A program made the translations under genes and the position numbers. The notes under the pieces are model-generated. The model saw nothing but the letters and a program-made list of their open reading frames with translations. It had not been told where the DNA came from and searched no databases. A DNA stretch of 35,745 nucleotides from Clostridia bacterium. GTDB lineage: Bacteria > Bacillota > Clostridia > Oscillospirales > CAG-382. Below are positions 7,606-22,220 of the stretch, one piece after another; the first letter of the stretch is position 1; the number at the start of each line of letters is the position of its first letter. The stretch lies in assembly GCA_017434845.1 (NCBI GenBank), contig JAFSGD010000001.1:1-35745 (forward strand). The letters run 5' to 3'.

Positions 7606-8451
7606 ATGAAAAAGATCATTGCTATGATGTTGGTTCTCGTTATGGTTGCCGCATTTGCAGCTTGCACCGATAACGATGAAACCTCGAAAACTTCTTCTGT
7701 TGCCGAATCCTCTGCGGTTGAATCTTCCGTTGCAGAGTCTTCTGTTGCAGAATCCTCCGATGCAGAATCTTCCGATGCTTCCTCCGAGGCTGAAGACAAC
7801 GGCGTTATGACCTATGAAGAATACATCGCCGCTGAACTCGAAAGCGAAGTTGTTATCGAAGCATACGTTCAGGCACATCAGTCCTGGTGGGAAGACAAGA
7901 TCACCGTTTACTGTCAGGATAAAGACGGCGCTTACTTCCTCTATGAGCTCGCTTGCTCCGAAGAAGACGCTGCAAAGCTCATTCCCGGCACCAAGATCCG
8001 CGTTAAAGGCTTCAAGACCGAATGGGAAGGCGAAGTAGAAGTTGCTTCCGGCGCTACCTTCGAATTCATCGAAGGCGCTGATACCTTCATCGCTGATGCT
8101 CTCGACGTTACCGCACTTCTCGGCACCGACGATCTCATCAAGCATCAAAACGAATTCGTATCCTTCAAGGGTATGACCGTTGCAGCATCCAAGGATGCCG
8201 AGGGCAACGACGTTGCATTCCTTTACAACTGGGATGGCTCGGGCGAACAGGGCAACGACCTTTACTTCAACGTAAGCATCAACGGTGCAACCTATAACTT
8301 CTGCGTTGAGTCTTACCTCTGCGGTAAAGACACCGACGTTTACAAGGCTGTTGAAGCTCTTGAAATCGGCGACGTTATCGATATGGAAGGCTTCCTCTAC
8401 TGGTATCAGGGCGCTAACCCCCACATCACTTCTGTAACCGTTGCCGAATAA
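7606..8451 (+). CDS. Lipoprotein with OB-fold-like domains
   Basis: A 281-residue lipoprotein: signal peptide with lipobox (FAAC, Cys21), a linker of about 40 residues with repeating V/D-AESS units, then an exported domain. That domain contains two similar halves built around phrases such as VVIEAYVQ, GTKIRVKGF and FVSFKGM, IGDVIDMEGF. This pattern of short beta-strands resembles OB-fold modules seen in clostridial lipoproteins. No enzymatic residues are evident. Codon choice is strongly biased to C-ending codons, as in the opp binding-protein gene, suggesting high expression. Strong AAGGAG site, own promoter and own terminator. Ligand and role unknown. Confidence 0.85.
   Translation: MKKIIAMMLVLVMVAAFAACTDNDETSKTSSVAESSAVESSVAESSVAESSDAESSDASSEAEDNGVMTYEEYIAAELESEVVIEAYVQAHQSWWEDKITVYCQDKDGAYFLYELACSEEDAAKLIPGTKIRVKGFKTEWEGEVEVASGATFEFIEGADTFIADALDVTALLGTDDLIKHQNEFVSFKGMTVAASKDAEGNDVAFLYNWDGSGEQGNDLYFNVSINGATYNFCVESYLCGKDTDVYKAVEALEIGDVIDMEGFLYWYQGANPHITSVTVAE
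7690..7790 (+). repeat. Short tandem repeats encoding the AESS linker
   Basis: Inside the lipoprotein gene, near-identical 15-base units (GTTGCAGAATCTTCC-like) repeat several times and encode V/D-A-E-S-S. Repeats of this kind can change number by slippage without breaking the frame. Confidence 0.7.
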
Positions 8452-8460
8452 TTAAATCCG

Positions 8461-8494
8461 AAAAAAACGAGAGGTGAAAACCTCTCGTTTTTTG
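8461..8494. terminator. Bidirectional terminator
   Basis: AAAACGAGAGGT pairs with ACCTCTCGTTTT around a GAAA loop, with A and T runs on either side. It serves the lipoprotein gene ending at 8451 and the convergent dehydrogenase ending at 8519. Confidence 0.92.
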
Positions 8495-8518
8495 TTTGCA
8501 TATACTGATAATCGGACT

Positions 8519-9475
8519 TTAAACGATTCTGTTTCTGCTTCCGCCTTTATAATAAACACGTATGTTTTCGCATATTTCGTTCATACAGCGTTCTCTTGCC
8601 TCAAAGGCGCCCCAAGCCATGTGCGGTGTAAGGCAAACGTTTTCTCGCTCTTTAATGCGATAGAAGGGGTGCTCCTTGGGCATCGGCTCGGTTGAATATA
8701 CGTCGCAGCCGAGAAATCCGATCTTGCCCGATTCAACCGCCTTCGCGGCGGCCTCTTCGTCAAAAACGGCACCGCGCGCAACGTTAACGACAATAACGCC
8801 GTCCTTCATCGCCGAAAATTCATTCTCACCGATCATTCTTTTCGTCGAATCGTTAAGAGGAACGTGAACTGTTATAATATCCGATCTTTCCAACAGCTCG
8901 CCAAGCGAAACACACTCGGCATCCTCAACGGGAGTTCGCTTGTTAACGATAACCTTGCAGCCGAGCGCTCTTGCCGCTTCGCTAACCTTTTTACCTATTC
9001 CGCCATATCCGATTATGCCCCAGGTTTTTCCTGCAAGCTCATGGTAAACGGGAGTTAAAATATTTTGAACGTTGCCGCTTGAATATCTTCCGCTTGCGAC
9101 CGATTCTCTGAAAACGTTAAGATTGACCGATGCCGAAAGCACCATCGCAAGCGTTAATTGCGAAACCGAATTCGCCGAATATCCCGCAACGTTGCAAACG
9201 GCAATGCCGTTTTGCCTGCAATATTCAGTGTCTATGTTGTCATAGCCGGTTGCCGCAACGCAAATAAGTTTCAACGCCTTCGAGTGCTTCAAAACCTCTG
9301 CATCAAGCTTAACCTTGTTTATAACGCAAACGTCTGTGTCGCCGATTCTTTCTGCGATCGTTTCGCGCGGCGATAGGGAATAGACGGCCGTTTTTCCGAT
9401 GCTGTCAAATCCCGAAAGGTCGATATCTTCGCCGAGCGTTGCCGCATCAAGAATCGCAATTTTAATTTTTTCCAT
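8519..9475 (-). CDS. D-2-hydroxyacid dehydrogenase (glycerate dehydrogenase/hydroxypyruvate reductase type)
   Basis: A 318-residue NAD(P)-dependent cytoplasmic oxidoreductase that interconverts 2-keto acids and D-2-hydroxyacids. The Rossmann glycine motif GYGGIG lies at 156-161. The catalytic triad of the family is visible as Arg234 (NVARGA), Glu263 (VYSTEP) and His285 (TPHMAWG). Length fits the family (about 310-330). The substrate cannot be fixed; hydroxypyruvate, glyoxylate or a branched keto acid are options. Ribosome binding site GGAGA precedes the ATG. Monocistronic, divergent from the opp operon. Confidence 0.93.
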   Translation of the reverse strand: MEKIKIAILDAATLGEDIDLSGFDSIGKTAVYSLSPRETIAERIGDTDVCVINKVKLDAEVLKHSKALKLICVAATGYDNIDTEYCRQNGIAVCNVAGYSANSVSQLTLAMVLSASVNLNVFRESVASGRYSSGNVQNILTPVYHELAGKTWGIIGYGGIGKKVSEAARALGCKVIVNKRTPVEDAECVSLGELLERSDIITVHVPLNDSTKRMIGENEFSAMKDGVIVVNVARGAVFDEEAAAKAVESGKIGFLGCDVYSTEPMPKEHPFYRIKERENVCLTPHMAWGAFEARERCMNEICENIRVYYKGGSRNRIV

Positions 9476-9511
9476 TTTTATTTCTCCAAATAACTTTTTG
9501 CCGTTTGTTAT

Positions 9512-9540
9512 ATAATATCATATATCTGCGTGAATGTCAA
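9512..9540 (-). promoter_or_regulatory. Promoter of the D-2-hydroxyacid dehydrogenase
   Basis: On the minus strand, TTGACA (9540-9535) and TATTAT (9517-9512) are 17 bases apart. This is about 100 bases from the divergent opp promoter. Confidence 0.8.
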
Positions 9541-9644
9541 AACAAGCTTTTTGCTTTAAAAACGCAAAAATATAACCGCTTTTATTAAAAAATACCGCAA
9601 AACAAAGCGTAAAACGATAAAATATTCGTACTTTGAACTTTTTA

Positions 9645-9673
9645 TTGACAAATAAGCAAATTAATTGTATAAT
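9645..9673 (+). promoter_or_regulatory. Strong promoter of the opp operon
   Basis: A perfect consensus: TTGACA at 9645-9650, 17-base spacer, TATAAT at 9668-9673. It fits the strongly biased codon use of the first gene. Confidence 0.88.
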
Positions 9674-9679
9674 ACTATC

Positions 9680-9793
9680 CGTACTACTTTGCGGTGGTTT
9701 GCGTTCGCGCAAATTCAAGTCGGGAAACTCGCCGTCAAAGCGGTATAAACTCGCAGCTCATATTATTTATATTTTTTAAGGAGGCTTATTTCA
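9680..9793 (+). promoter_or_regulatory. Structured 5' leader of the opp mRNA
   Basis: About 115 bases separate the promoter from the ATG. TTTGCG (9698-9703) and CGCAAA (9708-9713) form a hairpin with a TTCG loop. CTTTG (9687-9691) can pair with CAAAG (9736-9740) to enclose that hairpin and a weaker one near 9721-9731. A perfect AAGGAGG site follows at 9778-9784. I recognise no riboswitch class. The structure may stabilise the message or control it. Confidence 0.45.
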
Positions 9794-12013
9794 ATGAGCA
9801 AGAAGATTCTTTCGATGCTTCTCGCTGCTCTCATGGTTGTGGCTGTAGTTATCACCACCACTTCCTGCGTCAACAGCGGCACCGAAACTTCCAAAACCGA
9901 AAGCAACACTTCGGGCACATCTTCCACCACCGAAGAAGTTGTTTACACCGATCCTTTCGCTGATCTCGAAGGCGACGAACGTTACGAGGCTATCTATAAC
10001 GAAGCTCTCGGCGAATTCCTCGAAGCTTACGAGGCTGCAAAAGCAGAAACCGACAGTCTTTCCAAGAGATTTGCTCTCATGGCAATCGCAGAGGCAAAAC
10101 TTCTTGAGTCCGGCGTTATGCTTCCCCTTACTACCCGTGGCGGTAACTATGCTATCTCCAGAGTAGCTCCCTACACCGTTCCCTCTATGCTTTGGGGCAA
10201 CGACTCCGACAGATTCCACGATGCTATCGTTGCAACCGATCTCATCAAGGCTGAAGACAGAGCTGAGATGAAGGTTAAGTACAACGAGCTCAAGGGCACG
10301 GGCGAATACCTTGCATGGGTTAAGACCTTCCTCACCGAGAAGGGCTACACCACCAAGGATTCCTACACCATCGCTTACTCTTCCGATCCTCAGACTTGGG
10401 ACGCTCTCGCTACCTCCATGGCAGCAGACTCCGAAGCTATCGTTAACACCTATGACGGTCTCTACGAATATGACGTAGAAGGCACTCTTAAGCCCGCTCT
10501 CGCTCTCAGCCACACCGTTACCACCACCGGCGAAGGCGATGAAATGCGCACCGTTTACACCTTCAAGATTCGTGAAGGTCAGATCTGGGTTGACAGCCAG
10601 GGCAGAAAAGTTGCTGATCTCACCGCTAACGACTTCGTTACCGGTATGCAGCACATGATGGATGCTGAAGGCGGTCTCGAATACCTTATTCAGGGCGTTA
10701 TCGTTAACGCAAGCGAATACATCGCAGGCGACATCACCGATTTCGCAGAAGTTGGCGTTAAGGCTACCGACGATTACACCCTCGAATACACCCTCATCGG
10801 CAACCCCACCTACTTCCTCACCATGCTCGGCTACAACTGCTTTGCTCCTATGAACAAGGAATACTATGTAGCACAGGGCGGTAAGTTCGGCGCTGATTTC
10901 AACGCTGAAGCTGAAGATTACAACTACGGTAAGACTCCCGACAACATCGCATACTGCGGTCCTTACCTTGTTGAGAACCTCACCAAAGAAAGCACCATTA
11001 AGTTTGTTCTTAACGATTCTTACTGGAACAAGGATAACGTTAACATCAAGACTCTCACCTGGCTCTTCAACGACGGTAAAGATACTACCAAGACCTATGA
11101 AGACTGTAAGGCAGGCATTCTCGATGGTGCCGGACTCAATCCTTCCACCATCGAACTCTCCAGAACCGAAAACTACTTCGAGCCCTATTCCTATATCTCT
11201 TCTACTGACGCAACCTCTTTCATGGGCTTCTACAACCTCGACAGAGCTACTCTTCACAACTTCAACGATGAAAACATGGCAGTTTCTCCCATGACCGAAG
11301 AAGATGTTCTCAGAACCAACGCAGCTATCCGTAACGCAAGCTTCCGTCGCGCTCTTAACATGGCACTTGACAGAGGCGGTTACAATGCTCAGACTCAGGG
11401 CGAAGAGCTCAAGCTCAACTCCCTCAGAAACTCCTACACTCCCGGTACCTTCGTATCTCTCGAAGAAGAGACCACCGTTTCCATCAACGGCACCGACAAG
11501 ACCTATCCCGCAGGCACCTGGTATGGCCAGATCATGCAGGATCAGATCGATGCAGACGGCGTTAAGATCAAGGTTTGGGATCCCGCTGCAGATGACGGCG
11601 TAGGCTCCACCGACGGTTTCGACGGCTGGTACAACGCTGAAAATGCAGTTGCAGAACTCAACAAGGCTATCGAAGAACTCGCTGCTATCGGTATCGAAGT
11701 TTCTGCTGAGAACCCCATTCAGATCGACCTTCCCTACTGGTCCGGCAACGAAAGCTACACCAACCGTTCCAACGCTTACAAGCAGTCTATCGAGACCGTT
11801 CTTGGCGGCAAGGTTAAGGTTAACCTTCTCGATTGTCCCACCAGCGGCGATTGGTACAACGCTGCATACTATCCTACCTCCGGCGCTGATATGAACTACA
11901 CCATCGCAGACGTTTCCGGTTGGGGCCCTGACTACGGTGATCCTCAGACCTACCTCGACACCATGCTTCCCGACTACGTTGGCTACATGGTTAAGAGCCT
12001 TGGTATTTATTAA
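9794..12013 (+). CDS. oppA: Oligopeptide-binding lipoprotein (SBP_bac_5), apparently circularly permuted
   Basis: A 739-residue exported peptide-binding protein with signal peptide (Cys25, TTTSC) and a Ser/Thr linker. The canonical N-terminal start of the family appears only at about residue 190 (YTIAYSSDPQTWDAL, then VNTYDGLYEYD). The protein runs through normal OppA landmarks (VYTFKIREG; AYCGPY; FRRALNMALDR; GWGPDYGDPQTYLDTM) and stops about 25 residues later. The last stretch of ordinary OppA proteins is absent there. A segment of that kind lies instead at about residues 58-148 (KRFALMAIAEAKLLESGVMLP, SRVAPYTVP), before the canonical start. This order suggests a circular permutation. First gene of the operon, perfect AAGGAGG site, codon bias of a highly expressed gene. 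Confidence 0.92.
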   Translation: MSKKILSMLLAALMVVAVVITTTSCVNSGTETSKTESNTSGTSSTTEEVVYTDPFADLEGDERYEAIYNEALGEFLEAYEAAKAETDSLSKRFALMAIAEAKLLESGVMLPLTTRGGNYAISRVAPYTVPSMLWGNDSDRFHDAIVATDLIKAEDRAEMKVKYNELKGTGEYLAWVKTFLTEKGYTTKDSYTIAYSSDPQTWDALATSMAADSEAIVNTYDGLYEYDVEGTLKPALALSHTVTTTGEGDEMRTVYTFKIREGQIWVDSQGRKVADLTANDFVTGMQHMMDAEGGLEYLIQGVIVNASEYIAGDITDFAEVGVKATDDYTLEYTLIGNPTYFLTMLGYNCFAPMNKEYYVAQGGKFGADFNAEAEDYNYGKTPDNIAYCGPYLVENLTKESTIKFVLNDSYWNKDNVNIKTLTWLFNDGKDTTKTYEDCKAGILDGAGLNPSTIELSRTENYFEPYSYISSTDATSFMGFYNLDRATLHNFNDENMAVSPMTEEDVLRTNAAIRNASFRRALNMALDRGGYNAQTQGEELKLNSLRNSYTPGTFVSLEEETTVSINGTDKTYPAGTWYGQIMQDQIDADGVKIKVWDPAADDGVGSTDGFDGWYNAENAVAELNKAIEELAAIGIEVSAENPIQIDLPYWSGNESYTNRSNAYKQSIETVLGGKVKVNLLDCPTSGDWYNAAYYPTSGADMNYTIADVSGWGPDYGDPQTYLDTMLPDYVGYMVKSLGIY

Positions 12014-12117: not shown

Positions 12118-13695
12118 ATGACGAAATATTTATTAAAGCGCCTGTTGCACGGTTTGCTTTCATTGGCTGTCGTCGTCGCTATCGTAATGCTTCTTATATA
12201 TTCGTTCCTTGAAAAAGATCTCATTTTTGCCGGAGATCCTAATTTCTCGAAGCTCAAACATAACTCAAAAGACACCTATATGTATCAGCAGTGGGAAAAG
12301 TACGGATATCTTGATTACGTTCCTTATGCAGATTACGTTCAGGAGCTTCTCAAGGCGGGCGAGATAACCCAAGAAGAATACAGCGACATCGCAAAGCTCG
12401 GCGCAACCGCAGAAAAAGACAGCGAAACCGCTGCTCCGTATATTCAAAAATTTATCGAAAAATATGAAGCCGATGGCTATCAGATCGAGCGCTTGCCCGG
12501 TAAGCTTAAGGGCAAGACCAAAAAATACCATGAGGGCGGTGAACCCCGTCTCTTTGCGTATAAAGATATTCCGCTGATCAACCGACTTGTTGATTATTTC
12601 GGCGGACTTATCAGCGTTGACGATATCGATTATGTAGAGCAAGATATCGAAGATCGCGGCATTTCCTTCACGCTCTACGACCCTGCCTATGGCGGCGAAA
12701 AATTTTCGCCTGCTATTATGGGCAACGGAACTAAACACAAGTATCTTTTATACTTTGATGATCAGTTCCCGTACATTCATCAGAATTTGGTAAAAATCAA
12801 CCTCGGTACCTCCTACAGCGTTAACCGCGGTATCGACGTTTTTGATACGATGACCACCTCTCAAGGTTCGTTTGTTAAAAGTGTAGTAACCTATCCCAGC
12901 GGTGTTGTTGAAGAAACTGCCGATAATATTCATAGTGCTACATATATGGCGGGTTCGCTTGAAAAAGGAACCGCAGTTACAAAGCAGTATTATGTCGACG
13001 ATTATACTGTTGTAACAACTCATAAAAACGGCCTTTCCAGAGTCGGATATTCCTTTGTTATAGGTATAATCTCGGTCATCCTTTCCTATCTTCTTGCCAT
13101 TCCCTTGGGAACCTTAATGGCTCTTAAGAAGGACAAGTTCATCGACCATCTCGGAACCTTCTATATCGTGTTCATTCTTGCCGTTCCTTCGCTTGCATAT
13201 ATCTTTATGTTCAAGGCGATCGGCGGCAGCATGGGCTTGCCGACAACGTTCAGCGTTGATGACGCAAGCTGGAAGATGTATGTGCTTCCCATCATTTCGC
13301 TTTCGCTTCCTTCGGTTGCAAACCTTATGAAATGGTTAAGACGCTATATCATCGACCAAATGAACTCCGATTACGTAAAATTTGCACGTTCGGGCGGTCT
13401 TTCCGAAGGCGAGATATTCAGCAAGCACATTCTTAAAAATGCTATGATACCGATAGTTCACGGTATCCCCGGAAGCATTCTCGGCGCATTGGTAGGTGCA
13501 ATTATAACCGAGCGCGTTTACGTCGTTCCCGGTGCAGGTAACCTGCTCACCAACGCGATCAACGCTTATGATAACGGCGTTATCGTCGGCGTAACACTCT
13601 TCTATGGCTTGCTTTCGGTTGTTTCTATCATCCTCGGCGATCTTCTTATGTCGATGGTAGACCCGAGAATCAACTTCACAGCGAAAAGGAGGTAA
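12118..13695 (+). CDS. oppB: Oligopeptide ABC transporter permease OppB with large extracytoplasmic insertion
   Basis: A 525-residue membrane permease; ordinary OppB proteins are near 310. Transmembrane helix 1 lies at about 10-32 and the remaining five helices begin near residue 308. The EAA-type loop is visible (YVKFARSGGLSEGEIFSKHILKNA, written here only in part of its context, near 420-445). The usual short outer loop (INLGTSYSVNRGIDVFD, about 235-252) is preceded by about 150-180 extra polar residues (about 38-220) and followed by another 50. This extra domain would sit outside the membrane facing the binding protein. Ribosome binding site AGGGGAT. Confidence 0.92.
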   Translation: MTKYLLKRLLHGLLSLAVVVAIVMLLIYSFLEKDLIFAGDPNFSKLKHNSKDTYMYQQWEKYGYLDYVPYADYVQELLKAGEITQEEYSDIAKLGATAEKDSETAAPYIQKFIEKYEADGYQIERLPGKLKGKTKKYHEGGEPRLFAYKDIPLINRLVDYFGGLISVDDIDYVEQDIEDRGISFTLYDPAYGGEKFSPAIMGNGTKHKYLLYFDDQFPYIHQNLVKINLGTSYSVNRGIDVFDTMTTSQGSFVKSVVTYPSGVVEETADNIHSATYMAGSLEKGTAVTKQYYVDDYTVVTTHKNGLSRVGYSFVIGIISVILSYLLAIPLGTLMALKKDKFIDHLGTFYIVFILAVPSLAYIFMFKAIGGSMGLPTTFSVDDASWKMYVLPIISLSLPSVANLMKWLRRYIIDQMNSDYVKFARSGGLSEGEIFSKHILKNAMIPIVHGIPGSILGALVGAIITERVYVVPGAGNLLTNAINAYDNGVIVGVTLFYGLLSVVSIILGDLLMSMVDPRINFTAKRR

Positions 13696-13701
13696 GGATA
13701 A

Positions 13702-14691
13702 ATGAACGAACAGAAGATCGATCTTCAGGAGTTCGGTATGTCCGATGAAGAGCTTTTTGCTCCCGTCGAGCACGACTTTATGGATTCCGAAAAGATAACT
13801 GCACCTCGTTATTCCTATTGGCAGTCTGTTTTCCGTGTTTTCTTCCGCAAGAAGATCAACATATTTGTCCTTTCGCTTCTTGCCGTTATACTTATTTTCA
13901 CCTATGTTTATCCCGCTGTTATCGGCTATGATGCCGAGGTCGATCCTTACATCAACCTCATGAACGGCGAGGCCAAGCACTTAACACCCTCTGCCGCAAT
14001 GGAAATGTTCGGTAAGAACATTCATTGGATTCTCGGCTCGGGTGCAAAGGGTGAATCTACCTTCGATGCTATTTGGTATGGCTCGAGCATTTCGGTAACT
14101 CTTGCGCTTATATGTGCTGTTATCAACATGGTTATCGGCGTTGTTATCGGTGCTGTTTGGGGCTTCTCCAAAAAGTTCGATATCTTCATGATCGAGGTTT
14201 ATAACATAGTTGCAAACGTGCCCTATATTCTTTTGATCTCGGTCGTTGTGCTTATCATGTCGGCAAGCTTCTGGTCAATGGTATTCGCGCTCACCGTAAC
14301 GGGTTGGCTGTCGATTGCTTATTTTATCAGAACTCAGGTTATTATCATTCGTGATAGGGAATATAACCTCGCGTCGCGCTGTCTCGGAACACCGATTTGG
14401 AGAATCGCGCTCAAGAATATTCTTCCCTTCATGACATCGGTTATCGTAACCCTTGCCGCAACCGAAATCCCCTCCTACATCTCCTATGAAGTGTTCCTTT
14501 CCTATATCGGAATGGGCTTAAAGGATATGTCGTTGGGTAAGCTTATCGAATCCGCTCAGGTTGCAATGGTAACTCCCGGTTGGGAAATCGAATTCTGGGC
14601 TCCCGTTGCTATCGCTTCCATCATAACCGTCGTTCTTTATGTCGTCGGACAAAATCTGGGTGACGCTTCCGATCCCAGAACCCATATGTAA
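13702..14691 (+). CDS. oppC: Oligopeptide ABC transporter permease OppC
   Basis: A 329-residue permease with an N-terminal cytoplasmic tail of about 45 residues and six predicted helices, of ordinary family length. Landmarks include the outer-loop stretch WILGSGAKGESTFDAIWYGS (related to the GTDxxGRD...GxRxSL region) and the EAA loop YNLASRCLGTPIWRIALKNI near 220-240. The ribosome binding site AAGGAGG (13687-13693) overlaps the oppB stop codon, so the two genes are translationally linked. It forms the channel with OppB. Confidence 0.95.
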   Translation: MNEQKIDLQEFGMSDEELFAPVEHDFMDSEKITAPRYSYWQSVFRVFFRKKINIFVLSLLAVILIFTYVYPAVIGYDAEVDPYINLMNGEAKHLTPSAAMEMFGKNIHWILGSGAKGESTFDAIWYGSSISVTLALICAVINMVIGVVIGAVWGFSKKFDIFMIEVYNIVANVPYILLISVVVLIMSASFWSMVFALTVTGWLSIAYFIRTQVIIIRDREYNLASRCLGTPIWRIALKNILPFMTSVIVTLAATEIPSYISYEVFLSYIGMGLKDMSLGKLIESAQVAMVTPGWEIEFWAPVAIASIITVVLYVVGQNLGDASDPRTHM

Positions 14692-14703: not shown

Positions 14704-16455
14704 ATGGAAGATAACAGAAAAGTATTGCTTTCCGTTAAGGATCTTCACGTAAAGTTCCGCGTCCGCGGAAGAGTGCTCACCGCAATTCGCGGTATTTCGC
14801 TCGATCTTTACGAAAACGAATCGATCGCCATAGTCGGCGAGTCCGGCTCGGGCAAATCGGTTTTCACCAAGACCTTTGCGGGAATGCTTGAAACAAACGG
14901 TTTTATCAGTAACGGCTCTATCGTGTTTAACGATGAAGAGCTTGCTAAAACCTCGGTTGCGCTCACCTCGGGCGCAAAAAACGCCATCATCGCCGCTCAC
15001 AAAAAGCTTAATGAATATTCCGCGCTTGAAAACGGCGCAAAGCTTTTCAATGAGATCGAAGCTCTCAAGGCCGACGATGTCGCACGCCGTTCGCTCACCG
15101 AAGAAGAAGAGCAGTCCTTCGCCATTCGCTTAAAAGAGCTTCTCTATAAGAAGACCCAGGCGTTCAACGAAAAGCAGACCGTTGATCCTTCTAAGGAAAA
15201 GACGCGTGCAAAAGAACTTTCTTCGCTTATTTCCGAATACGAATCCGATATCAAGGCTCTCGAGGCAGAGAAGAAGGCGCTTGTTGCAAAGCGCAAGGCT
15301 GCCGTTGATGCCGATACGGAATATAAGAATGCGTTCAACGAAAAGCTCGCAAAATTATCAGATGAATACAAAATAAAAATTTCCTTTGATGTATCTCAGG
15401 AAGTTAAAGCGCGCAACCTTATCATCGCGAAGGAAATATATCTTTCGGTCGGAAGATATGGCTTTGTAAAGCGTCAAAAGCTTATAAAAGCGCTTCTTAA
15501 AGAAATGAAGAAGGCGATGCAAAAGGGCCTTGATCTCATGGATGAAAACGTGCGCAACGAGATATTCGATAACGTCGTTTTCCGTGTTAAGTATATCGAT
15601 GAGACCGAATCTGTGCTCAACGGCGTTTGCATTCTCAATCTTGCAAAGGTTCGCTATTCAAAAGACTGGAACCAGATCCGCGGCGGCAAGATCGCAACCG
15701 TTTTCCAAGACCCGATGACGTCGCTTAACCCGATCATAACCATCGGTAAGCAGATAACCTCGGTAATCTTAAAGCATCAGAATTGCTCTGAGATTGAAGC
15801 CCGTGCCCGCGCGCTCGAGCTTATGAAAAAGGTTGGAATTCCCAATGCCGAACAGCGCTTCGATGATTATCCCTTCCAGTATTCCGGCGGTATGAGACAG
15901 AGAATCGTTATCGCTATCGCTCTTTCCTGCCAGCCCAAGATACTCATCTGTGATGAGCCCACCACCGCGCTCGACGTTACAATTCAGGCGCAGATCCTCA
16001 AGCTCATCAAGGATCTTCAAAAGGAATTCGGCTACACCATCGTGTTCATAACCCACGACCTTGGTGTCGTTGCGAATATTGCCGATCGCGTTGCCGTGCT
16101 TTATGCAGGCCAGATGATCGAGCTTGGCAACGTTGAAGAGGTATTCTATGATCCCCGTCATCCTTACACTTGGGCTCTGCTTTCCTCTTTGCCTCAGCTT
16201 GCCGAGCGCAATACCAAGCTCTATTCCATTTCTGGCACACCGCCTTCTCTCTATAACGAGATCGTCGGCGATTCGTTTGCGCCCAGAAACCCCTATTGCC
16301 TTAAGGTAGACACTCTTAAAGAGCCGCCCATGTTCAAGGTAACCGACACTCACTATGCAAAAACATGGCTGCTCGATCCCCGTGCGCCCAAGATTGAAAA
16401 GCCTGAAATCATTCAGGATATCCACGAAAAGCTTCAGCGCACGTTCAACATTTAA
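14704..16455 (+). CDS. oppD: Oligopeptide ABC transporter ATPase OppD with a long helical insertion
   Basis: A 583-residue ATPase; ordinary OppD is about 330-350. Walker A GESGSGKS is at 45-52, but the Q-loop (ATVFQDPMTSLNP, Gln335) comes only after about 235 inserted residues (about 84-318). The insertion is rich in Lys, Glu, Ala and Leu and looks helical to coiled-coil. Signature YSGGMRQR 393-400, Walker B ILICDEP 413-419 and His451 are intact, so ATP hydrolysis is expected. The C-terminal OppD domain is present (HPYTWALLSSLPQL), but the cysteine cluster is reduced: the usual GC-FAPRCP reads GDSFAPRNPYC. Cytoplasmic, partner of OppF. Confidence 0.93.
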   Translation: MEDNRKVLLSVKDLHVKFRVRGRVLTAIRGISLDLYENESIAIVGESGSGKSVFTKTFAGMLETNGFISNGSIVFNDEELAKTSVALTSGAKNAIIAAHKKLNEYSALENGAKLFNEIEALKADDVARRSLTEEEEQSFAIRLKELLYKKTQAFNEKQTVDPSKEKTRAKELSSLISEYESDIKALEAEKKALVAKRKAAVDADTEYKNAFNEKLAKLSDEYKIKISFDVSQEVKARNLIIAKEIYLSVGRYGFVKRQKLIKALLKEMKKAMQKGLDLMDENVRNEIFDNVVFRVKYIDETESVLNGVCILNLAKVRYSKDWNQIRGGKIATVFQDPMTSLNPIITIGKQITSVILKHQNCSEIEARARALELMKKVGIPNAEQRFDDYPFQYSGGMRQRIVIAIALSCQPKILICDEPTTALDVTIQAQILKLIKDLQKEFGYTIVFITHDLGVVANIADRVAVLYAGQMIELGNVEEVFYDPRHPYTWALLSSLPQLAERNTKLYSISGTPPSLYNEIVGDSFAPRNPYCLKVDTLKEPPMFKVTDTHYAKTWLLDPRAPKIEKPEIIQDIHEKLQRTFNI

Positions 16456-16470
16456 AAGGAGGAAAACGGT

Positions 16471-17775
16471 TTGTCAAACAGTAACGAAACCAAAAAACGC
16501 GTTAGCCATTTGCCCGAACACGGTCCTCTTGACGAAAACGGCAGAGAAATTCTGCTTTCGTTAAAAAATGTTGATATTACCTTCGGTAAGGGTGATAACG
16601 CGGTTAAAGCGGTTAAAAACGCAAGCTTCGATATCTATAAGGGCGAAACCTTCTCGCTCGTTGGCGAATCGGGCTCGGGTAAAACCACGATCGGCCGTGC
16701 CGTTATTCGCGTTAATCCCTGCGCAAAGGGCGAAATCTTTTATAAAGGCGTTAAAATATCGGGCAAGCTTCCTCGCAAGCTTGATCGTGAGGTTATCAGA
16801 AATATTCAAATGGTCTTCCAGGATCCCGCCGCTTCGCTTAACGAGCGCGCAACCGTAGACTATATCATTTCCGAGGGTCTCTATAACTTCCACTTGTTTA
16901 AAAATGAAGAAGAACGCGTTCGCAAGGTCGAAAAAATGATTGAAGAGGTTGGCTTGCTTCCCGAGCATCTAACCCGCTATCCCCACGAGTTCTCGGGCGG
17001 ACAGCGTCAGAGAATCGGTATTGCAAGAGCAATGGTAATGGAGCCTGAGCTTGTCGTTGCCGACGAGCCTATTTCTGCGCTCGACGTTTCGATTCGTGCT
17101 CAGGTTCTCAACCTGCTTAAAAAGTTCCAGAAGGAACGCAACGTAACCTATCTCTTCATCGCACACGACCTTTCGATCGTTCGCTTCATTTCCGACAGAA
17201 TCGGCGTTATCTATAAGGGCAACATCGTCGAGGTTGCCGATGCGGAAGAGCTCTTCAATTTCCCGCTTCATCCCTATACAAGATCGCTCATTTCCGCAAT
17301 TCCGATACCCGATCCTCTTCTCGAAAAGAAAAAGGTGCTCTTCACCTACGATCCTTCGGTTCATGATTATTCAAAGGAACAGCCCGAGCTCGTTTGTATC
17401 GGACATAACCATTATGTTTACGGTAACAGCGCAGAGATCGAGGAATACACCCGCATCCGCGAAAGCGGCGTTCCTCTTAAATCCATAACCATCGCCGAAA
17501 GCGAAGAAGAGCTCGAAGCCGCAAGCACCGAAGAGCAAACCGTTGCAGGCGCAGATTCGATCCTCGATGCACCTCTTCACGATACCGGAAATAAGCTTTA
17601 CAGCATCGGTTCGTTCTTGCTTCCTATTTTGGGTCTTATTGCAGGATTCATATTCAAGAAGCATAATTATATCAGAAACTTCAAGGCTTGCAAAAAGGGT
17701 GCTATCGCCGGTCTTGCAACCTTTGGCGGAATAGTGGCATTGTTCCTGCTGTTCCTGTTGATAGCAACTCTTTAA
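16471..17775 (+). CDS. oppF: Oligopeptide ABC transporter ATPase OppF with C-terminal membrane anchor
   Basis: A 434-residue ATPase; ordinary OppF is about 310-330. Walker A GESGSGKT 65-72, Q-loop region [12 protein letters not shown], signature FSGGQRQR 174-181, Walker B LVVADEP 194-200 and His232 are intact. After the nucleotide-binding domain comes an acidic linker (about 340-370) and two hydrophobic helices (about 378-395 and 409-432). These would tether the subunit to the membrane independently of the permeases. The usual C-terminal cysteine motif is not seen; [20 protein letters not shown] stands in its place. The start is TTG at 16471, set by AAGGAGG at 16456-16462; no ATG fits better. 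Confidence 0.92.
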
Positions 17776-17782
17776 TCGGTTT

Positions 17783-19030
17783 ATGGGTCTGTTTAACAGA
17801 AAACCGAAGCCGGTTGAGAACATCGAGGTTTCGGTATATCGTCCAAAGCTTAGGCTTGCGATAGTTCTCGGATTTCTGCTGATCGGCTTTATTGCCCTTG
17901 GCATCGGCTTGTTCGGCTTGTTGAATAAAAACAACGGCTGGACAGCCATTGAAATGACCGAGAAGCATCCCGAAATCGAATCCGAGCTTATATTCAACTA
18001 CAATCTCGGCAAAAGCGGCGTTAAAGCAACCGCCGAATATAAATCCATTTCGGCTCTTTATCAAGCCGAGGCAACAAAAGCATACCGCGTTTTCCATGCA
18101 ACTGAGGAATTCGAGGGAGTAAACAATCTTTCAACTCTTTCGTCTAATATCAACAAGGCGTTTGAAGTCGATCCCCTGCTTTATAACGCTTTGAAAATGT
18201 TAGAGGAAGAGGGAAGCCGTTTGATCTATCTCGCGCCTCTTTACAGCGAGCATGAAAGCCTTTGCATAAGCGAGCAAGACAGCTTTGCAGAGCTTCACGA
18301 TCCTGCGCTTAACAAAGAAGCCGCAGAATACAGCTTGGAAATATTGAAATATGCAATGAACCCCGACATGATCACGCTTGAGCTCCTCGAGGGCAATCGT
18401 GTAAGGCTTCGTGTTGCAAAGGTTTATCAGGATTTTGCCGAAGAAAACGAGATAACAAGCTTTGTTGACCTCTATTGGTTAAAAAACGCTTTTGTCGTTG
18501 ATGCGGTCGCCGATGCAATGATAAGCAACGGATACACCAACGGAAATATAACTTCTTTCGATGGCTTTACCCGCAATTTTGATAATTCGGGCGAGGAGTA
18601 TTCCATGAATGTTTTCAACTGCCGCGAAAGGCTTATTTATCCCGCGGGTGCGGTTAAATACAAGGGCGCTTCGGCGTTTGTGGCTTTCCGCAACTATCCG
18701 ATGAGCGATCGAGACGGGTTCCGCTATTACACGTATTCAAACGGAAATATCGTGAACCCCTATATAAACACCGCAAACGGATTCAGTAACACCAATAACA
18801 GCGAGCTTTTGGTTGCGTCGAAAACCAAGGGCTGTGCCGAAACGGCGTTAAAGGCGTTTGAATGCTTCGTTTCCGAAGAGCTTGGCGCTGATGCACTTAA
18901 GGATCTTCTTGCCGAAGATATCGCGTCGGTTTGGTGTGAGGAAACAACGGTTGTTTATAACAGCGATGAATTTCCCATCGGTGTAACCTTCTCCGAAGGC
19001 GGCGTTGCATATTCATCTAAAAAAGCATAA
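17783..19030 (+). CDS. Membrane-anchored ApbE-like protein, probably not a flavin transferase
   Basis: A 415-residue protein with one transmembrane helix (about 24-46) and an outside domain. Its plan follows ApbE (FAD:protein FMN transferase): FEGVNNLSTLSSNIN near 110-124 matches the 'S.ls.iN' start, FVDLYWLKNAFVVDAVADAM near 227-246 matches 'lDlGgiaKGyavD', and FRYYTYSNGNIVNPYINTANG near 313-333 matches the 'hIiDPkTG' region. KTKGCAETALKAF (347-359) matches the metal-binding 'aDalsTalf' helix. The His of HxIDP and the D/T of the metal site are replaced, so FMN transfer is doubtful. It starts eight bases after oppF with no good ribosome binding site, suggesting translational coupling. Role unknown, perhaps an Opp accessory protein. 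Confidence 0.75.
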   Translation: MGLFNRKPKPVENIEVSVYRPKLRLAIVLGFLLIGFIALGIGLFGLLNKNNGWTAIEMTEKHPEIESELIFNYNLGKSGVKATAEYKSISALYQAEATKAYRVFHATEEFEGVNNLSTLSSNINKAFEVDPLLYNALKMLEEEGSRLIYLAPLYSEHESLCISEQDSFAELHDPALNKEAAEYSLEILKYAMNPDMITLELLEGNRVRLRVAKVYQDFAEENEITSFVDLYWLKNAFVVDAVADAMISNGYTNGNITSFDGFTRNFDNSGEEYSMNVFNCRERLIYPAGAVKYKGASAFVAFRNYPMSDRDGFRYYTYSNGNIVNPYINTANGFSNTNNSELLVASKTKGCAETALKAFECFVSEELGADALKDLLAEDIASVWCEETTVVYNSDEFPIGVTFSEGGVAYSSKKA

Positions 19031-20423: not shown

Positions 20424-22220
20424 ATGGCACAGAAGATCTTAAAAAGAAGCGAGGTTGCGGTTGAAAACACCTGGAACCTTGCCGATATGTTCGAAAGCGA
20501 CGATGCATGGCTTAAGGAATACGAAGCATTAAAGGAATTTCCCGGAAAAATCGCCGCATTCAAGGGCAAGCTGGGCGAAAGTGCGGCAGGCCTGCTTGAA
20601 TTTTTGCGCTTTGAGGATGAAATCGACGTTCGCCTTTCGGTTTTCTACGGCTATGCAAACTGCAAGGGCGATGAAGATACCGCAAACGGATTTTATCAGG
20701 ACCTTCGCGGTAAGGCAATGAGCACCTATATTGCCATTTCTAGCGCGGGCTCTTTTGCAACACCCGAAATTATGGCAATTCCCGAAGAAACCCTAAAGGG
20801 CTTTTTCGAAGAAGAAAAAGAGCTTGAAACCTATCGCAGAGTTATTCACAGCATTCGTCGCCGTGCGGCACATGTTTTAAGCCCCGAATGCGAAAAGCTT
20901 CTTGCTTCTGCAGGCGAAATGGCAGACGGTCCCGACAATATCGTCGGAATACTTCGCAACGCTGACCTCAAATTCCCCTCGGTAACCGATCCCGAAGGCA
21001 ACGAGCTTCCCTTAACCGGCGGTTCCTTTGTTCCTTATCTCGAAAGCGATAACGTAGAATTTCGTAAGCAGGTCTTCGAAACCTATTATAACCGTCTCGG
21101 TGAGTTCAAAAACACCATTGCGGCAACTCTCGACGCACAGTTCAAGCAGCTTCGCTTCTTCGCCGAAGCGCGTAAATACAATTCAACCCTCGAAGCCTCG
21201 CTCGATCGCACCGAGGTTCCCGTTGAGGTATACCATAACCTTATTCAAGCGGTTCATAATAATCTCGATAAAATGTATAGCTACGTTGCGCTTCGCAAAA
21301 AGCTTTTGGGAGTTGATGAGCTTCATATGTATGACGTTTACACCCCGATCGTTGCCGATGCCGCATCCGAGATAAGCTATGAAGAAGCAAAGGAAAACGT
21401 TCTCGAGGCACTTCAGGTTCTCGGCGAGGATTACGTCGAGCTTCTCAAGGAGGGCTTCAACAACCGTTGGATCGACGTTTACGAAAACGAAGGCAAGCGC
21501 GGAGGTGCATATTCCTCGGGCAACAGCCGTCCTCATCCCTATGTTCTTCTCAACCATAAGGATAACCTCGACAGCATGTTCACCCTCGCTCATGAAATGG
21601 GCCATGCGCTTCACAGCTATCACAGCACTCATAATCAGCCCATTTGCACAAGCGATTATGTTATTTTCGTTGCCGAGGTTGCATCGACCTGTAACGAAAT
21701 ATTGCTTATGCGCCACCTTCTTTCCAAAACCACCGATAAAAAGGAACGCGCATATCTTATCAATCATTTCCTCGATCAGTTCAAGGGCACCATCTATCGC
21801 CAGACAATGTTCGCCGAATTCGAGCTCGAAATGGGCAAAATGTCCGAAAGCGGTCAGACCCTCACGGCAGACGCACTTTCTGCTAAATACCATGAGCTCA
21901 ACAAGCTTTATTTCGGTTCCGATATGGTTTCGGATGACGGTATAGCTCTCGAATGGGCAAGAATTCCTCACTTCTTCTATAACTATTACGTGTTCCAGTA
22001 TGCAACCGGATTTTCTGCCGCAGTTGCGATAGCTTCGCGTATTCTCGAGGAAGGAAAGCCCGCTGTTGACGATTACAAACGCTTCCTTTCGGGCGGAAGC
22101 AGCACCGATCCTATCTCGCTTCTTAAGATCGCAGGCGTTGATATGAGCTCTCCCGAACCCATCAATTCGGCTTTGAAGCTGTTTGGTGATCTTATCAAAG
22201 AAATGGAAACTTTAATATAA
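20424..22220 (+). CDS. pepF: Oligoendopeptidase F (M3 zinc metallopeptidase)
   Basis: A 598-residue cytoplasmic zinc peptidase that cuts short peptides, usually after import. The zinc site HEMGH is at 390-394, with the third ligand Glu418 in the VAEVAST segment. Full family length (about 600), no signal peptide. The N-terminal helical lid begins TWNLADMFES, as in PepF. Ribosome binding site CGGAGGAAC before the ATG. It is the second gene of an operon with the GNAT-NIF3 fusion and lies 1.4 kb beyond the opp operon, so it may process peptides brought in by that transporter (inference from position and family role). Confidence 0.96.
   Translation: MAQKILKRSEVAVENTWNLADMFESDDAWLKEYEALKEFPGKIAAFKGKLGESAAGLLEFLRFEDEIDVRLSVFYGYANCKGDEDTANGFYQDLRGKAMSTYIAISSAGSFATPEIMAIPEETLKGFFEEEKELETYRRVIHSIRRRAAHVLSPECEKLLASAGEMADGPDNIVGILRNADLKFPSVTDPEGNELPLTGGSFVPYLESDNVEFRKQVFETYYNRLGEFKNTIAATLDAQFKQLRFFAEARKYNSTLEASLDRTEVPVEVYHNLIQAVHNNLDKMYSYVALRKKLLGVDELHMYDVYTPIVADAASEISYEEAKENVLEALQVLGEDYVELLKEGFNNRWIDVYENEGKRGGAYSSGNSRPHPYVLLNHKDNLDSMFTLAHEMGHALHSYHSTHNQPICTSDYVIFVAEVASTCNEILLMRHLLSKTTDKKERAYLINHFLDQFKGTIYRQTMFAEFELEMGKMSESGQTLTADALSAKYHELNKLYFGSDMVSDDGIALEWARIPHFFYNYYVFQYATGFSAAVAIASRILEEGKPAVDDYKRFLSGGSSTDPISLLKIAGVDMSSPEPINSALKLFGDLIKEMETLI

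Follow-up and report, generated by a model that had tools for sequence, protein, structure and literature searches.

A predicted AmiA/AliB-type peptide receptor with a circularly permuted sequence order, and further permuted OppA-like proteins

Bacteria very commonly use OppA-type proteins as nutrient receptors, and these proteins are generally regarded as having a single, fixed architecture. PMC11192437 describes for AmiA, AliB, AliC and AliD of Streptococcus pneumoniae (8a42, 8qlj, 8qlh, 8qlc) a common SBP_bac_5 core and a C-terminal segment with an extra Ami helix, the extra C-terminal helix being a hallmark of Ali proteins. It also describes a common WGPD peptide-binding motif in the Ami/Ali system, with AliB W500 and D503 holding the peptide N-terminus, and an AmiC-like permease with a large extracellular part. 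Natural circular permutation of the binding lipoprotein of an ABC importer was described in PMC4990184 for TpMglB-2 (Tp0684, 'Cluster Bc') of Treponema pallidum, a type I/B sugar binder in which strands of the N lobe have moved to the C-terminus and a fourth hinge crossing has been created. Permuted proteins of the TpMglB-2 type were also reported there from many Gram-positive gut bacteria. Among the papers listed by open-access searches on circular permutation of binding proteins of this kind, none deals with a permuted OppA-type protein; in PMC2265533 the wording turned up in unconnected passages.

The window, the whole stretch of 35,745 nucleotides from a Clostridia bacterium that was analysed, contains an oppA-like gene for which a sequence-only reading had proposed circular permutation. 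We call its permutation type A; two others, B and C, are treated below.

Order of the parts in the 739-residue protein

The gene has these features:
9794-12013, + strand: predicted AmiA/OppA-type peptide-binding protein of 739 aa in circularly permuted order, type A (PF00496, PDB alignments, homologous loci)
9794-9868, + strand: signal peptide and possible lipobox (TTSC, Cys25; loose pattern only), from the sequence
9869-9988, + strand: Ser/Thr-rich tether from Cys25 to the first helix, from the sequence
9989-10291, + strand: moved C-terminal segment, residues 66-166 (PDB alignments, segment profile)
10292-10360, + strand: new connector, residues ~167-189, between the old C-terminal helix and the old N-terminal strand (alignment, ordinary relatives)
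10361-12010, + strand: core, running from the ordinary N-terminus into lobe 2 and stopping at the new C-terminus (PF00496, PDB alignments)
11921-11932, + strand: W710-G-P-D713, the equivalent of AliB W500 and D503 (AliB alignment, invariant columns, PMC11192437 in its account of the motif)

The protein scored 113.9 bits against PF00496 (SBP_bac_5; cut-off 32.4) over residues 232-725, and SBP_bac_5 was the only Pfam family to pass its cut-off. By these matches and the alignments below, it is a cluster C peptide-binding protein of the AmiA/AliB type. Along the chain, AIAEAKLLESGVMLP stands at residue 97, SRVAPYTVP at 122 and GWGPDYGDP at 709. The canonical first strand, SYTIAYSSD, begins at residue 190, as the sequence-only reading had said; the stop, which it had put about 25 residues past GWGPDYGDPQTYLDTM, comes 15 residues past the end of that motif.

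Searches of PDB sequences with phmmer aligned the protein out of order. Residues 189-724 matched AmiA 14-497 and residues 69-157 matched AmiA 521-611; for AliB, residues 186-737 matched 4-500 and residues 72-160 matched 515-603. In these single-sequence searches the moved segment alone was weak, with i-Evalues of 0.08 and 0.10. A profile was built on residues 64-186, taking the window protein together with 31 relatives (32 rows, the relatives being every second of 62). Against 177,635 distinct PDB sequences it gave just four matches with E <= 1, namely AliD, AliC, AliB and AmiA, with whole-sequence E-values of 8e-9 to 3e-8 and all at the C-terminal end (chain 513-626). A related segment profile reached near the last residue of ordinary relatives (643-736 of 738 in L104, 555-655 of 668 in L169, 520-612 of 620 in L105), and the eight ordinary relatives whose matches were printed all matched at their C-terminal ends, with E-values of 4e-7 to 1.5e-14.

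Because the profile runs to the C-terminal helix of the ordinary relatives, the moved segment is taken to be about residues 66-166, with the start of the extra C-terminal helix included. It holds a KAE-type helix, a 'vmlP' strand, the SRVAPY loop and the start of the Ami-type C-terminal helix. A segment of C-terminal type had been proposed for residues 58-148; its presence and nature were confirmed, and its limits were not, the segment being longer. The connector columns 166-189 hold 24-26 residues in the 63 aligned type A rows, a nearly fixed length, and on this alignment the genuinely new connector is only about 23 residues (167-189), rather than the roughly 40 first suggested. The C-terminal segment ending in an extra helix, a trait of the AmiA/Ali subgroup, is thus by its alignments present and N-terminally placed, and the subgroup's linear order of N-terminal part, core and C-terminal part is absent.

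Alignment of the two parts with SBP_bac_5, which the sequence-only reading had advised, proved indecisive: the core matched, no Pfam match fell within about residues 43-189, and the best SBP_bac_5 match ended at model position 361 of 368, inside the core. Standard models see permuted SBP_bac_5 proteins as truncated or oddly extended, and permutation explains why.

Operon context and distribution of type A

Downstream of the receptor gene lie:
12118-13695, + strand: OppB/AmiC-type permease, 525 aa (PF00528 at 327-518)
13702-14691, + strand: OppC/AmiD-type permease (PF00528, PF12911)
14704-16455, + strand: OppD-type ATPase, 583 aa, with a long insertion within the ABC domain (PF00005 in two stretches, oligo_HPY)
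16471-17775, + strand: OppF-type ATPase, 434 aa, with a C-terminal tail carrying two hydrophobic segments (domain search)
17783-19030, + strand: unannotated 415-aa protein after OppF, with one N-terminal hydrophobic segment (conservation)

The OppB-type permease has about 260 residues between its first hydrophobic segment and the remainder. The two hydrophobic segments in the OppF tail look as if the ATPase were membrane-attached. An M3 oligopeptidase is encoded further downstream (20424-22220); judged by sequence, it and the operon fit peptide uptake. The peptide-holding residues W710 and D713 are invariant in the 63-row type A alignment.

The gene corresponding to 17783-19030 is kept after OppF in 58 of the 64 type A loci, and its 415-aa product matched nothing in Pfam or NCBIfam at E 0.001, while its PDB matches got no better than E 0.17. 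The gene is missing from four loci whose OppD is of normal size, 358-370 aa (L040, L045, L073, L094), and from two with the long OppD (L025, L036). Separate OppB, C, D and F frames were found in 63 of the 64 type A loci with at least 6.4 kb downstream. The remaining locus (L028), from a metagenome-assembled genome, has one 1029-aa frame (8134-11220) that matches OppD at residues 15-595 and OppF at 613-1028, an apparent OppD-OppF fusion.

Related loci were collected from genome contigs, the best 80 of 229 related stretches giving 78 loci. All 78 have the segment model ahead of the core model within one frame, and none has the segment behind the core, although two frames, one cut by a contig end (L092) and one broken at unread bases (L079), cannot show that a C-terminal copy is absent. 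The permutation is therefore clade-wide, as the collection of homologues advised by the sequence-only reading was meant to reveal. L058 also holds a second frame, itself cut, in which the core stands by itself. In L057 and L081 a pair of type A genes, no more than about 5 kb apart, precedes a single operon; L058 has such a pair too, its first copy being cut. Three type A records carry strain titles: Fusicatenibacter saccharivorans (L044), Roseburia hominis (L052) and Lachnospiraceae bacterium A4 (L088). Almost all of the rest come from metagenome assembly or from uncultured organisms, and the names given to them need care.

Type A is patchy. Within the window's family, 6 of 63 genomes carry it, the window's own included. 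In the class sample 5 of 391 genomes had it (G000, G111, G262, G098, G360), as did 2 of 398 in the phylum sample, both inside the class; the own or centre genome is included in these counts. Among 99 relatives of G111, that centre genome counted, it was found in eight, all of one genus. An AmiA-like protein in the ordinary order occurs in another genus of the window's family (L009), and the window's genome itself has a second OppA-like gene (L002), cut by a contig end, with the C-terminal part in its ordinary place by eye.

Two readings would do away with the permutation. In one, residues 66-166 are an unrelated helix-strand domain on an ordinary receptor truncated at its C-terminus, which might account for single-sequence i-Evalues of only 0.08-0.10 for this region and for its failure to match any Pfam family. 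The profile, however, matched only the four Ami-family structures and at the one corresponding place, and the ordinary relatives matched at their C-terminal ends, so that this reading is very improbable. The other holds that the order is an artefact of assembly or gene calling, and the window's genome is indeed a fragmented draft of 77 contigs; yet the same order in one open frame recurs in all 78 loci, which come from many assemblies and include three records with strain titles, and the OppBCDF operon stands behind the type A gene in 63 of the 64 testable loci. The artefact, for which we see practically no chance, is refuted by that recurrence. An ordinary protein with an extra copy of the segment was likewise rejected, none having been found after the core in the 78 loci (the L092 and L079 frames being incomplete). 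The out-of-order alignments to four solved relatives, the lack of a second segment copy and the constant order in 78 of 78 loci fit circular permutation, and on these grounds we regard the window protein as a circularly permuted AmiA/AliB-type receptor, in line with the original proposal.

Types B and C and the number of origins

Two other permutations were met among OppA-like proteins. In a type B protein (L122), residues 210-559 correspond to OppA 8are 17-364 (i-Evalue 3e-82) and residues 52-192 to 8are 367-508 (3e-26). In type C, residues 309-569 of L163 correspond to 8are 22-287 and residues 72-287 to 8are 294-507, while in L162 residues 300-564 correspond to 6npo 32-297 and residues 53-295 to 6npo 300-541. 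By eye, L165 has the same break as type C. Matches spanning the junction were found in the class sample of 391 genomes in at least G121, G176, G229 and G428 for type B and G454, G418 and G153 for type C; in G113 the two parts lie in two frames beside unread bases. The phylum sample of 398 genomes added at least nine genomes with type B matches, seven of which read as one frame; the match in G832 has an internal stop and that in G647 is known from the match alone. The permuted SBP_bac_5 proteins of types B and C include those of L120-L122, L132, L133, L140, L147, L165, L182-L186, L189 and L193. Of 74 loci with B-, C- or ordinary-type frames, some of which hold the same gene (e.g., L115 and L135), 65 were ordinary, seven permuted and two undecided (L012, L133). 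One ordinary AmiA-like receptor (L174) carries a long extra N-terminal region ahead of the core, which presumably resembles copper-amine-oxidase-type repeats.

Trees were made from the N-terminal stretch that is contiguous in all permutation types. The first set took in only 30 type A rows, and removal of four near-duplicates left 99 rows; eleven more, long branches and near-duplicates, were taken out for an 88-row tree. A 91-row tree was made after nine rows of type A and two type B duplicates had been left out. The 91-row tree needs six changes of order, one for type A, three for B and two for C; the earlier 88-row tree, without the type B rows from other classes, needs five. Type A forms a single clade beside ordinary AmiA-like proteins (support 100/98 in the 91-row tree). 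Monophyly of B or of C appeared in 0% of 200 bootstrap trees from the 91 rows, and the AU test rejected a single clade both for type B (p 3.5e-5) and for type C (p 0.024), with the provisos that the groups were named after the search and that the rejection for type C is modest. In the 91-row tree L190, whose frame contains a stop, belonged to no group; in the AU test it was placed with type B. One origin for all permuted proteins was thus rejected by the trees and the AU test. About six changes is the parsimonious reading, and the counting leaves room for reversals.

These trees raise the idea that oligopeptide-binding proteins of this phylum have been permuted repeatedly, about six times independently, by breaks at three loops that all lie in lobe 2, and that every such event took the two chain ends, and the tether if there was one, out of lobe 1 and into lobe 2. 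We put this forward tentatively, rating it as somewhat doubtful. If it is true, the tethered lobe would be the first captor of the peptide and lobe 1 the moving lid, and the way in which the receptor is presented to the permease would be changed.

Chain ends, possible anchor and comparison with known systems

In the domain description of PMC11192437, AliD lobe 2 comprises residues 297-582 and lobe 1 residues 29-63, 191-296 and 583-617 plus 64-190. AliB W500 is chain residue 474, so chain numbers are about 26 below full-length numbers and the type A break falls at about AliB 526-541; the AliD offset is assumed to equal that of AliB. Because this interval falls inside the AliD lobe 2 limits, the break is placed in lobe 2. 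By these published limits the new N- and C-termini would both lie in lobe 2, the ends of ordinary proteins lying in lobe 1, and since the new N-terminus is so placed an anchor there would hold the protein differently. The type B and C breaks also map inside lobe 2, the type C mapping (about AliD 316) being approximate. Since matches were ranked by the N-terminal half of the core, the searches would miss or split proteins cut in lobe 1; because of this bias the finding that all breaks lie in lobe 2 is suggestive only.

A loose lipobox pattern was found in 55 of 63 type A rows (54 in a narrower scan, before the late start of L094 was added) and a strict pattern in 31 of 63; the window's TTSC at Cys25 fits the loose pattern and fails the strict one. 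In eight type A rows the signal peptide fails even the loose lipobox pattern (L025, L034, L046, L055, L062, L068, L069, L070). A twin-arginine-like start was seen in L055 and also in L057, L058 and L081. On these patterns, lipid anchoring of type A proteins is probable at most and is not universal. In the 55 proteins with a loose lipobox the tether, from the lipobox Cys to the equivalent of Y68 in the first helix, has a median of 44 residues. The corresponding median in ordinary AmiA-like proteins, from Cys to the first core strand, is 16.5 residues (22 of 30 loci); the end points differ in kind, and the eight ordinary loci left out (L172, L174, L175, L177-L181) mostly have long frames ahead of the core. 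Among types B and C, a loose lipobox occurs in the intact class-sample proteins L120, L121, L122, L132, L140, L147 and L165 and in the broken L133, and a strict one in five of these eight. Of the six distinct type B proteins from other classes, five have no lipobox (L182, L184, L185, L189, L193), and the loose one of the sixth (L183) is not common to its kin.

Two views of why the order changed can be set against these data. The permutation may be selectively neutral: a cut in any loop would be tolerated as long as the fold survives, tandem duplicates would supply the raw material, and the position of the anchor would have no effect. The use of three break loops, two of them repeatedly, speaks for neutrality, as does the lack of a lipobox in some permuted proteins. 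In addition, L187 and L188, which belong to the ordinary-order sister group of a type B clade, carry tandem oppA-like genes, the raw material expected for permutation by duplication. Against it, all the breaks found map to lobe 2 and none to lobe 1, and the type A tether has over twice the length of the one in ordinary relatives, though search bias could explain the former and other causes either; neutrality keeps a substantial chance, a little short of even. Alternatively, selection may have favoured the permutation because it took the lipid anchor off lobe 1 and put it on lobe 2. The lobe 2 breaks of all three types, the loose lipobox in most type A rows and in seven intact class-sample B and C proteins, five of which pass the strict pattern too, and the longer type A tether would agree with such selection, but the type B proteins from other classes mostly have no lipobox, the strict pattern is confined to about half of the type A rows, and detection favours lobe 2 breaks. 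Selection for anchor position is thus rather unlikely, and a shift of the anchor cannot account for the permutations in general, given that a lipobox is missing from some type B proteins.

Whatever drove the change, the window protein is very probably the receptor of an Ami/Opp-type importer with its C-terminal part moved before the N-terminus, its fold and binding site kept and both ends in lobe 2; fold and lobe assignment are read from homology and the published residue ranges. The gene would encode the peptide receptor of an Ami/Opp-type ABC importer, and the moved part would comprise the last helix of lobe 2, the return strand of lobe 1 and the Ami-type C-terminal helix. It would most likely have arisen when an ordinary amiA-like gene was duplicated in tandem, or fused, in frame and the outer halves were then lost, although no duplicated intermediate with the segment at both ends was found among the ORFs examined in the locus sets. 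Such an event would leave a short connector between the old C-terminus and the old N-terminus and a signal peptide at the new start in lobe 2, with the fold and peptide site preserved. The probable lipid anchor would then hold lobe 2 by a longer tether, and lobe 1 would be a free lid closing on the peptide and the permease.

The ordinary-order relatives of types B and C are 8are, 8ay0, 6npo and 1b05 (OppA/DppE); we take 8are and 8ay0 to be the Bacillus subtilis OppA and DppE structures, and the OppA of 1b05 to be enterobacterial. Relative to ordinary OppA and DppE, type B is cut at 8are 364/367 and type C at 8are 287/294 or 6npo 297/300, and the parts are rejoined. A clade-wide form together with repeated, apparently independent permutations would provide natural experiments on chain order and tether position in a Venus-flytrap receptor. 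AmiA and the Ali proteins keep the linear order; the window protein instead has the C-terminal segment in front and would end in lobe 2. TpMglB-2 is likewise a natural permutation, and its authors likewise considered tethering as a reason for it (PMC4990184). The window protein nevertheless appears to stand outside Cluster Bc, only SBP_bac_5 passing the cut-off and its best PDB relatives being peptide-binding proteins; it belongs with cluster C, and here the C-terminal part has moved to the front. In sum, natural circular permutation, known before for one sugar-binding cluster, is extended to cluster C.
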